Part shown: one piece after another, positions 935-3,282 of the stretch
Numbering within the stretch: the stretch's first letter is position 1
Layout of the letters: each line of letters begins with the position of its first letter
Virus record (IMG/VR): IMGVR_UViG_3300044730_001448
Location: 1-35,208 of that record
Length of the DNA stretch: 35,208 nucleotides
From: a virus
Direction: 5' to 3' (one strand)
Position numbers and translations under genes: made by a program
Notes under the pieces: model-generated
What the model saw: the letters and a program-made list of their open reading frames with translations, nothing else
Told to the model about the DNA's origin: nothing
The model's database searches: none

Positions 935-1243
935 TCAATCACTCCAAGATAATTTTTCTGGTCTGTATCTTTGTGCGTCTTTAACTTTTAAAGAATTTGA
1001 TGCTGATGGGTAAATATTGTGAACGATTGCTCCAGGATATTCTCCCTGAAGTTGTTCGGCAAGTTCATTTTTATCCATCATTTTACCCTCTACTTCCATA
1101 CGATAGAGTCTTCCCTGCCAAACTACATCAGCAAGAAAAGACTCTTTAGTAGTTTCTGGTTGTGAAGAATTCATATAGAGATTTCCATTAAAATCTCCAG
1201 CAATGTTGATGCTTTCTGATAGAAATTGTTTAAAGGATTTCAT
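935..1243 (-). CDS. Small protein with T4-type capsid-targeting-like N-terminus
   Basis: 102 residues. The first ten, MKSFKQFLSE, closely resemble the capsid targeting sequence of T4 internal proteins (MKTYQEFIAE in IPII and IPIII). Like those, they end in an L/I-x-E triplet of the kind cut by the gp21 prohead protease. The rest is a soluble alpha/beta sequence with V-W-Q-G-R-L-Y-R-M-E-V-E and Q-G-E-Y-P-G-A-I-V-H segments and no membrane helix. A protein like this could be carried into the prohead core and released into the host with the DNA. The gene follows the 533-residue modular protein with one base between them. The targeting role is inferred from the N-terminal similarity; the function of the mature part is unknown. 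Confidence 0.7.
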   Translation of the reverse strand: MKSFKQFLSESINIAGDFNGNLYMNSSQPETTKESFLADVVWQGRLYRMEVEGKMMDKNELAEQLQGEYPGAIVHNIYPSASNSLKVKDAQRYRPEKLSWSD

Positions 1244-1244
1244 T

Positions 1245-2846
1245 TTAGTTACAGTTCCAACGACGAAGTGCTTTGTTAATTCTTGAATCTGGGTCTCGTG
1301 CAGTTTTTGCAGAAGTTAGTTTAGACTTCATCCCAGACATACGACGACAAAAAGACTTACGGCGTTTGGCCCTTTTGCCACTAGGCTTTTTTTCGGTTAC
1401 TGCAGTTTGTAACTTTGAACCTGGATTCTCGCGGCGATATGCATTCACTGCTTTCTGACTTAATCCATCAGTTTTATCTTTACGATTGACTGATTGCCAG
1501 TCTTCCATAAATTGACTAAAAGTTTTTGACTCTCTTCTCAATTTTTGTATTGCACTATCGTATCTTTCCCCACCAATTGGTGAAGTTTTCCTTTGACCAT
1601 CGAGTGCTTTGTCTACAGCAGGTTTTACAAATTTTTTCATAAGATAAGGAGTAGCGGCAGCAGCAGCAATACCGCCCGCAACTAATGCTGGAGCAATTTC
1701 GTCTAGATTATTCTGTTCTGTTTTCATCTCACCACTATCAATATAATCTGCGGCAGCGTCAAGATAATCTGCTGCTTTAGTAATTTTTGATTGAACCCAC
1801 GCTTCAATATTACCCTCACCTTTTACTTTCTTCTTGAGTCTCTTTGCGGCAGAAATAATGGTGGAAATTTCAGATCTTGCCATTGAATGCTCGTGGTCAT
1901 ATGACTCTGGAAAATTGCCAGGATGCACTGTAGCAATATTGTATTTTTTCTGATTTTGCGAAAGTGGTGCTGGAAGAGAAAACATATCCCAATACTTGGG
2001 ACCATACTTGCATTCTGCTCTAGTTTCTACTTTGTCACATTTTGGACAATATCTTGTCATTTCCATTTCTTCATTTGCTTTTACACAATTATTATATGTT
2101 TTACCAAACATTTTTTTTGTTCCTTTCTTTTTATATCCTGGCCAACACTTTTGACCTTCTCCAATTATAGTTTCTTCGGACTTTGTACCCCACTTATCAG
2201 CACCAACTTTGCGACATTTAACAAGTGCTCCAGATGCATAGGCACTTGGCCAAACATCATATCTTGACTTTACTTTATGGTAGCAAGCATCTTTTTTTCC
2301 ACTACCCTTACCTTTTACATCTGATTCTTCGTTCATTTTCTTTGGTTTGTCTGTTGAAACATAAGTTGGTTTTGCGGCATCAGATTTTGCTTGCTGACCT
2401 GGATCTGCTGCTTTTTTTCTTCTTGCTGCAGAGCGTCTTTCGGCAGGAGTCATACTTGATCTTTTTGCAGAAGAAACACATTTTGGAGTTCCTTCTCCTG
2501 GTTCATCACTTGCACAAGTTCCTCCAGTTACAACATTTACCCATCCAGGTTTTCCATCTTTTGAACTGGACTTATTGAACCATTTGTGGAGATTTCCTTC
2601 TTTCACATCTTTAAATTTTTTATGATGCTTTTTAGCATCAGACTCCATTTTTTTCAAACGAGTATAATAGTCTGGGATTTCGTCCAAATGTTGAAGAGCA
2701 ATTTCTGTCGCCAACTTCTGATTCTTGGTATGTTCGTGTTCAATTGGAGCACCCATATCAAGTTGCTTCTGAATAAACGAAACTTCAAGACGATGCTTTT
2801 TAGCAATCTCTTCCACTGTTTTATATGGTTTCAATTGCTCATTCAT
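1245..2846 (-). CDS. Modular basic Cys-containing protein, possible internal virion polyprotein
   Basis: 533 residues, rich in Lys and Arg and built from several short modules. Residues 1-75 (VEEIAKKHRLEVSFIQKQLD) look like the DUF5661 type. Residues 86-147 (H-K-W-F-N-K, G-W-V-N-V-V-T-G-G) and 488-533 (R-R-K-S-F-C-R-R-M-S-G-M-K, ending W-N-C) look like the basic Cys modules of the DUF6321 type. Residues 187-220 hold a Y-D-V-W-P-S-A-Y-A-S-G motif. Residues 231-257 hold K-C-W-P-G-Y with N-N-C-V-K. Residues 267-279 carry C-P-K-C and a further Cys. Residues 316-372 are helical, and 385-403 are an Ala/Gly-rich hydrophobic stretch. Module names are from memory. Between modules lie I-G-E (228-230) and L-D-E (381-383) triplets that fit gp21 cleavage, and K-T-F-S-Q-F-M-E-D at 441-449 echoes a capsid-targeting peptide. 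It sits directly after gp16. Confidence 0.75.
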   Translation of the reverse strand: MNEQLKPYKTVEEIAKKHRLEVSFIQKQLDMGAPIEHEHTKNQKLATEIALQHLDEIPDYYTRLKKMESDAKKHHKKFKDVKEGNLHKWFNKSSSKDGKPGWVNVVTGGTCASDEPGEGTPKCVSSAKRSSMTPAERRSAARRKKAADPGQQAKSDAAKPTYVSTDKPKKMNEESDVKGKGSGKKDACYHKVKSRYDVWPSAYASGALVKCRKVGADKWGTKSEETIIGEGQKCWPGYKKKGTKKMFGKTYNNCVKANEEMEMTRYCPKCDKVETRAECKYGPKYWDMFSLPAPLSQNQKKYNIATVHPGNFPESYDHEHSMARSEISTIISAAKRLKKKVKGEGNIEAWVQSKITKAADYLDAAADYIDSGEMKTEQNNLDEIAPALVAGGIAAAAATPYLMKKFVKPAVDKALDGQRKTSPIGGERYDSAIQKLRRESKTFSQFMEDWQSVNRKDKTDGLSQKAVNAYRRENPGSKLQTAVTEKKPSGKRAKRRKSFCRRMSGMKSKLTSAKTARDPDSRINKALRRWNCN

Positions 2847-2859
2847 TGGATAAAACTTA

Positions 2860-3282
2860 TTACTCTTTATTATTTAGAAAACCTTGCTTGAGTAATTTTG
2901 ACAATTCTGATGTTGATCCGACAAAAACTGCATTGTTTGTCACATTATTAGTTGTTTTTACAGATTCATCTTCAACATCTTTGAGTTTTTTCTGCAAATC
3001 TATAAGTTTATCTGTCACATCTCCAACACTCTTAATCAACTGCCCAGCAACTTCATATGCTCTTGGACTTCCACCTTCTCCGGCAAGTTCCATTATTCCA
3101 TTAATGGCTTCTTGCCCTTTTTCAATTAAGGAATATAGATTTGCTCTAGTATATTCATAATCTTTTTGGATATCATCCACTTTTAGTGGAGATATTTTTA
3201 ATTCTTCCTTTACCTTTTCTACTTCAACAATATTACTTTCAATATTAAGAGCAGAATCTAAACTATCAAATGTGTTACTCAT
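2860..3282 (-). CDS. 16: Terminase small subunit, gp16-like
   Basis: 140 residues. It matches the cyanophage form of T4 gp16, with an acidic N-terminal part followed by the core D-Y-E-Y-T-R-A-N-L-Y-S-L-I-E-K-G-Q-E-A-I near residues 41-60 and a helical R-A-Y-E-V-A-G-Q-L-I-K-S-V stretch near 74-86. The small terminase forms rings that recognise concatemeric phage DNA and regulate the gp17 motor during head filling. The C-terminal tail is predicted to be flexible. It lies seven bases downstream of gp15, as in T4. The next gene is not gp17 but the 533-residue modular protein, which is unusual. The assignment rests on sequence character plus synteny. Confidence 0.85.
   Translation of the reverse strand: MSNTFDSLDSALNIESNIVEVEKVKEELKISPLKVDDIQKDYEYTRANLYSLIEKGQEAINGIMELAGEGGSPRAYEVAGQLIKSVGDVTDKLIDLQKKLKDVEDESVKTTNNVTNNAVFVGSTSELSKLLKQGFLNNKE
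2871..2877 (-). promoter_or_regulatory. Weak late-promoter-like box upstream of the modular protein
   Basis: The minus strand reads CTAAATA, a partial match to the late TATAAATA box, ending 24 bases before the ATG of the 533-residue gene. The distance resembles the better boxes, but it lies inside the last codons of gp16 and A/T-rich DNA makes chance matches easy. Confidence 0.3.

Follow-up and report, generated by a model that had tools for sequence, protein, structure and literature searches.

The internal head proteins of phage T4 (IPI, IPII, IPIII and Alt) share a packaged route, marked by a capsid-targeting sequence (CTS) with aromatics at positions 4 and 7 and by Phi-x-E sites (Phi, hydrophobic) for the prohead protease gp21, and some of them are injected. 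T4 gp21 cuts after L/I-x-E; in the ten-residue CTS of IPIII, residues 4 and 7 serve targeting and residues 8 and 10 serve processing, and an Asp at position 10 keeps targeting intact while blocking or inhibiting processing (PMC9026906). The T4 core proteins gp22 and gp67/gp68 likewise yield several fragments from one precursor inside the head; these precursors are scaffold and the fragments mostly leave. Polyvalent proteins of phages and plasmids combine several domains in mosaic fashion and are believed to accompany the DNA (PMC5512222); they have enzyme domains, and any processing is carried out by their own metallopeptidase domains. Our searches of the openly accessible literature turned up no account of a head polyprotein in cyanophages.

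Cyanomyoviruses rank with the most abundant ocean viruses, and most of their virion proteins are annotated as hypothetical. Here, we analysed a 533-residue protein encoded in a 35,208-base IMG/VR fragment of a T4-like cyanomyovirus (the window). This protein is probably an internal-head polyprotein that gp21 would cut in its linkers into packaged mini-proteins, and by class it is a concatenated, reshuffled version of the T4-type CTS-tagged, gp21-processed internal head proteins. Each T4 internal protein stands alone and carries a single CTS at its N terminus, whereas the proteins studied here string many modules together, most of them preceded by a site, and in some cases also contain internal CTS-like elements. 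Unlike the T4 core fragments, the pieces belong to conserved families that are shuffled and are also encoded by genes of their own. The protein shares the mosaic architecture of polyvalent proteins, but gp21 would do the cutting.

A modular protein downstream of gp16

The open reading frame that the initial annotation singled out is real and lies on the minus strand, directly downstream of gp16 (Table 1); homologues of gp16, gp15 and gp14 adjoin it. Its C-terminal DUF6321 domain and its position next to gp16 place it in T4-like GC 119, the family name used in the S-SM1, S-SSM5, S-SM2 and S-B43 annotations, and a family known only as hypothetical or structural protein (structural in S-B43). The name reportedly follows the nomenclature of Sullivan and colleagues (2010) for cyanophage T4-like gene clusters. 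The same locus, between gp16 and gp17, is found in S-SM1, Syn9 and S-SRM01, gp17 itself being outside the 35-kb fragment. The protein had been described as self-contained, which is only partly right, as its presumptive protease is a separate gene: gp21 is encoded by the relatives S-SM1, Syn9, S-CREM2 and S-SCSM1, and lies outside the fragment, a point that counts against the polyprotein reading. Relatives occur in about 500 phage records, nearly all of them from cyanobacterial phages with a few from Pelagibacter and Roseobacter phages; as they share only part of the modules, they align in patches. A PDB sequence search with the 533-residue protein gave no match, and the predicted fold of the whole protein (mean pLDDT 54) contains long low-confidence linkers.

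Table 1. Features of the locus, in window coordinates (↓, predicted cut; aa, residues of the 533-residue protein)
Feature	Position	Strand	Residues	Basis or remark
gp16, terminase small subunit	2860-3282	-		533-residue ORF sits between gp16 and the 102-aa ORF
Putative polyprotein ORF, T4-GC 119 family, DUF5661/DUF6321 protein	1245-2846	-	533 aa	Pfam, homologues, homologue annotation
Module 1, DUF5661	2640-2813	-	aa 12-69	Pfam E 7.7e-14; invariant His
Putative gp21 site VKE83↓G, before module 2	2598-2606	-		[VILMF]xE in 30/31 non-redundant linkers at KWF boundary
Module 2, KWF, C-terminal half of DUF5872	2352-2594	-	aa 85-165	Stand-alone relatives; two invariant Cys
Putative gp21 site MNE173↓E, before module 3	2328-2336	-		Motif in 27/29 linkers at DACY boundary
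Module 3, DACY, N-terminal half of DUF5872 (weak)	2184-2297	-	aa 184-221	Two conserved Cys
Putative gp21 site IGE230↓G, before module 4	2157-2165	-		Motif in 58/62 linkers at CWGY boundary
Module 4, CWGY	2079-2150	-	aa 233-256	Module HMM; two invariant Cys
Module 5, CPKC	1971-2054	-	aa 265-292	Module HMM; C-x2-C-x8-C, three invariant Cys
Module 6, SMAR, helical	1725-1892	-	aa 319-374	Module HMM, structure model
Putative gp21 site LDE383↓I	1698-1706	-		Conserved in L020 and L022
Ala/Gly-rich hydrophobic segment	1584-1697	-	aa 384-421	Sequence; low-confidence helix in model
Internal CTS-like peptide KTFSQFMED, with non-canonical FME448↓D	1500-1526	-	aa 441-449	
Module 7, DUF6321	1251-1502	-	aa 449-532 (Pfam 456-530)	Pfam E 4.2e-15; net positive, two invariant Cys
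Stand-alone RVPA protein (eighth module type), N-terminal CTS-like MKSFKQFLSE↓S	935-1243	-	102 aa (own ORF)	

At least seven conserved modules follow one another along the protein. The Cys-bearing modules noted initially are indeed conserved families among the relatives, and Pfam covers DUF6321 and, weakly or via stand-alone relatives, both halves of DUF5872: KWF stand-alone proteins match DUF5872 at E 1e-15 and 1.4e-5, DACY matches the other half at E 0.008, below the cut-off, and DUF5661 and DUF6321 are members above it. All three are domains of unknown function, and a processed-polyprotein arrangement is absent from their Pfam descriptions. The DUF6321 end is strongly basic, with a net charge of +17 over the last 86 residues. 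Three His are fully invariant in the DUF5661 module of relatives, a possible metal site.

Invariant Cys number exactly two in most Cys modules and three in CPKC and YYCY. The C-P-K-C motif stands at residues 267-270 as first described, but the zinc binding ascribed to the Cys pairs found no support, since modules with two or three invariant Cys offer no Cys4 or Cys2His2 set. A zinc ribbon needs four conserved Cys/His ligands per module and CPKC has no fourth, so this candidate was dropped; the Cys pattern, judged from the alignments, fits disulphides or shared metal sites better.

Reshuffled modules and homologues in virions

With ten module HMMs, derived from the window protein together with its relatives, we scanned 180 sequences (1.48 Mb), in which 253 unique ORFs carry modules, up to nine per multi-module ORF. 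The 121 proteins with at least three modules show 57 distinct architectures, and a given module may be first, last, internal, duplicated or absent. The separate module search proposed in the initial annotation was informative, as modules do occur alone in other phages: we counted 49 stand-alone copies of RVPA, 39 of DUF6321, 20 of WSEKY, six of KWF, five of DACY and a few others. DACY, KWF and DUF6321 form separate neighbouring genes in contigs L169 (2156-2795), L174 (3788-4603) and L176 (994-2222), in L169 a few genes from a terminase large subunit. DUF5872 appears to be a DACY and KWF fusion; an algal giant virus is reported to have this domain as well (PMC12085832), and these modules are therefore common to phages and algal viruses.

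Homologues of the protein are found in virions. S-SCSM1_29 is annotated as a virion protein, in a phage for which 45 virion proteins were identified by mass spectrometry (MS) of CsCl-purified particles (PMC9602691). S-CREM2 splits the modules over two genes, gp137 (RVPA, DUF6321) and gp160 (KWF, CWGY, DACY), and its virion proteome by MS contains both, with 4 and 7 unique peptides, respectively (PMC10665884).

These data bear on an alternative in which the protein belongs to the prohead core or scaffold, in the manner of T4 gp22 or gp67, with modules that serve core assembly rather than delivery as cargo; gp21 would shred it, and the departure of the fragments would free space for DNA. In T4, proteolysis breaks the core proteins down into many pieces and the majority of these is lost (PMC9026906), and the low MS coverage of S-CREM2 gp137 (4.1%; PMC10665884) agrees with such a fate. 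Nevertheless, we consider this reading unlikely, because the modules are strongly conserved, extensively shuffled, often basic and encoded elsewhere as separate genes, unlike known T4 core proteins, and because the three-module gp160 is detected in virions.

A gp21-type motif between modules

A few L/I-x-E triplets in one lone protein would be unremarkable, and it is the comparison across relatives that carries the case for an internal-head polyprotein. As a calibration, T4 gp23 (PDB) shortens by 65 residues on maturation, from 521 to 456, and at the point of that cut the alignment shows LTE↓A in the S-CREM2 major capsid protein. We then collected 259 inter-module linkers, non-redundant at below 70% similarity. 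They hold 284 [VILMF]-x-E motifs against 140.4 ± 9.4 in shuffled linkers, a z of 15 that overstates independence because the linkers are related by descent; 221 of the 259 carry at least one motif, against 111 expected. Control motifs (other spacings, the reversed motif, Phi-x-D and Phi-x-K) gave z of about -4 to 5 in the same linkers, and in random windows of S-CREM2 proteins the motif was not clearly enriched (z about 0 to 2, P3 0.23-0.33). When the Glu nearest to each module was taken without selecting on P3, this position was hydrophobic (VILMF) in 70% of 236 cases, against 14% at P2, 34% at P4 and 19% at P5, and P1' was Gly, Ala or Ser in 49%. One and the same cut rule is found before several unrelated modules, at KWF, DACY and CWGY boundaries (Table 1) and also before RVPA (19/19) and DUF6321 (46/55). 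Conversely, the motif is depleted inside module cores relative to shuffles (per core, 0.01 vs 0.42 in KWF, 0.04 vs 0.23 in CPKC and 0.15 vs 0.99 in SMAR). The gp21-type motif is thus present at module boundaries beyond chance, as a gp21 substrate or polyprotein should have it, although its lesser consistency at SMAR (16/23) and CPKC (15/30) boundaries counts against the polyprotein reading.

DUF6321 provides an internal comparison. In multi-module proteins a Glu lies at most five residues upstream of this module in 113 of 116 cases, and nearly all N-terminally extended single copies have it as well, whereas it is missing from all single DUF6321 proteins whose own Met opens the module (MAKTPA-WQRKEG and the like; pelagiphage and podovirus-like forms). 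The module itself therefore does not need the Glu, which appears to go with having something to be cut from.

In the window protein, the initial annotation had correctly placed IGE at E230 and LDE at E383 and missed the linker sites at 83, 173, 314 (FPE314↓S) and 448 (FME448↓D). Its L/I-x-E rule was of the right, gp21 type and too narrow: these phages seem to follow [V/I/L/M/(F)]-x-E↓[G/A/S/D/K] as their cut rule, with some five boundary sites here rather than two. The three modules of S-CREM2 gp160 are likewise preceded by LSE127↓, LEE218↓ and ISE252↓. On the other side, Phi-x-E also occurs inside DUF5661 (VEE13 and LDE56) and DUF6321 (VTE485) of the window protein, and the closest relative, L020, has no Phi-x-E before CWGY, both of which count against the polyprotein reading.

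Could Phi-x-E merely mark flexible linkers in an uncleaved multidomain protein, internal or neck-associated in the virion? The linkers are Glu-rich and modelled with low confidence, and detection in virions does not itself demonstrate cleavage. However, the specificity at P3 and P1', the Met-started singles without Glu, the depletion in cores and the flat controls make this quite improbable. A polyvalent-like effector (in the sense of Iyer et al., 2017), injected whole and active in several ways in the host, would match the many unrelated domains per polypeptide, the fast shuffling and the late/packaging gene neighbourhood, but is hardly credible given that a Pfam search of the 533-residue protein found no enzymatic domain, let alone multiple enzymatic or DNA-modifying ones, and that its modules are 25-85 residues long with predicted protease sites between them.

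We thus favour an internal-head polyprotein, first proposed from this one protein and now strongly backed by comparative sequence evidence and by homologues in virions; the proteolysis itself we infer. After synthesis, the polyprotein would join the prohead core, helped by CTS-like peptides (here the internal KTFSQF), and the gp21-type protease of the phage would cut at [V/I/L/M/F]-x-E in the disordered linkers. The products would be small, mostly basic mini-proteins of one to three modules: residues 1-83 (DUF5661), 84-173 (KWF), 174-230 (DACY), 231-383 (CWGY, CPKC and SMAR, perhaps recut at 314), 384-448 and, if FME↓D is accepted, 449-533 (DUF6321). They may stay with the packaged DNA and would presumably be injected; for the biochemical role of the modules, DNA condensation or host takeover would be a guess. 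If this is correct, one gene family explains how cyanomyoviruses load several small proteins at once, and the single-cargo CTS mechanism of T4 extends to a shuffled polyprotein. The rule [VILMF]-x-E followed by a small residue would then predict processed head proteins in any cyanomyovirus genome, and DUF5661, DUF5872 and DUF6321 would become candidate packaged, delivered effectors or DNA-binding peptides.

CTS-like peptides in the protein, its neighbour and its relatives

The internal capsid-targeting peptide suggested initially is a real pattern, with a reservation about its processing. KTFSQFMED corresponds to CTS positions 2-10, with F4, F7 and M8 in place but E9-D10 at its end, and canonical processing there should therefore be blocked by the Asp at position 10, which counts against the polyprotein reading. 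Targeting by this peptide is plausible; cleavage at that point is doubtful. The peptide looks like the CTS of a fused stand-alone protein, because relatives carry the same element at this boundary (KTFFQFMIE↓A or LKTFNEFVIE↓A), as does a stand-alone relative in L144, which starts MNNKKTFSEFMIE↓VAAW. Across the family, at least one internal CTS-like element is found in 46 of 128 proteins, and aromatic pairs in linkers are enriched at i,i+3 (50 vs 16.6 expected) and at chance at i+2 and i+4. Many relatives encode a tiny WSEKY protein, MKTFKQFQE(E/D)↓WSNKY..., just upstream of the polyprotein gene; in other relatives WSEKY sits inside the polyprotein as one of its modules. Tiny CTS ORFs of the form MKTFKQFQEE↓WSNKYKKSIDCSNPK were seen directly upstream of this gene in L048 (4819-4992), L052 (4837-4992), L056 (3410-3577) and others.

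The ORF immediately downstream of the 533-residue ORF encodes the RVPA protein (Table 1). Its start reads as a textbook CTS, with aromatics at 4 and 7, a hydrophobic residue at 8 and Glu at 10. Among its 41 family members, M1, K2, F4 and F7 are conserved at 90% or more and E10 is complete, and position 8 is Ile, Leu or Met in most of the rows shown. The polyproteins of S-B43, S-SCSM1 and S-SM2 contain its RVPA core as an internal module, and independently a structure search with its model matched DUF6321 proteins of S-CAM9 and P-HM1 and the S-SCSM1 virion protein. In the PDB, the AF2 model lies closest to T7 Gp2, an inhibitor of host RNA polymerase (prob 1.00, E 0.06), and to the RNAP-epsilon YkzG, at weak E-values. 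Comparisons of this ORF with PDB profiles, with Pfam and, by hhalign, with Gp2 alignments gave no match, and the likeness is therefore a fold-level lead only. A more ambitious version of the polyprotein reading, which we regard as speculative and rather unlikely in full, is a reshufflable cassette by which T4-like cyanophages load the head with mini-proteins that bind host targets or DNA and that other marine phages and algal giant viruses also have, gp21 releasing injected effectors among which the T7-Gp2/RNAP-epsilon-like RVPA would target host RNA polymerase.

CTS-like starts are also found on other proteins. In S-CREM2, a loose CTS regex gave no enrichment for virion detection (3/9, p 0.45). 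The four proteins with a strict T4-like CTS (the SAM hydrolase gp6, the APH-like kinase gp14, the cytidylyltransferase gp154 and gp136) were all virion-detected (4/4, Fisher p 0.003), a value that is partly post hoc because the strict form was chosen after the looser one had failed. The CTS-like peptides that begin the MS-detected enzymes gp6, gp14 and gp154 end in Phi-x-E, RFASFMAE↓A stands close to the N terminus of the Cas9-like gp12, and gp13 carries MKDLHSFLTE (S-CREM2 loci L180 and L182); these starts suggest CTS-based packaging of host-modifying enzymes. The picture in S-SCSM1 is mixed: the stand-alone SSCSM1_30 has a perfect CTS (MKTFKQFMSE) and carries no virion annotation, which counts against the polyprotein reading, and the NMN adenylyltransferase, which starts MKSFLQFLKE, is annotated as a virion protein.
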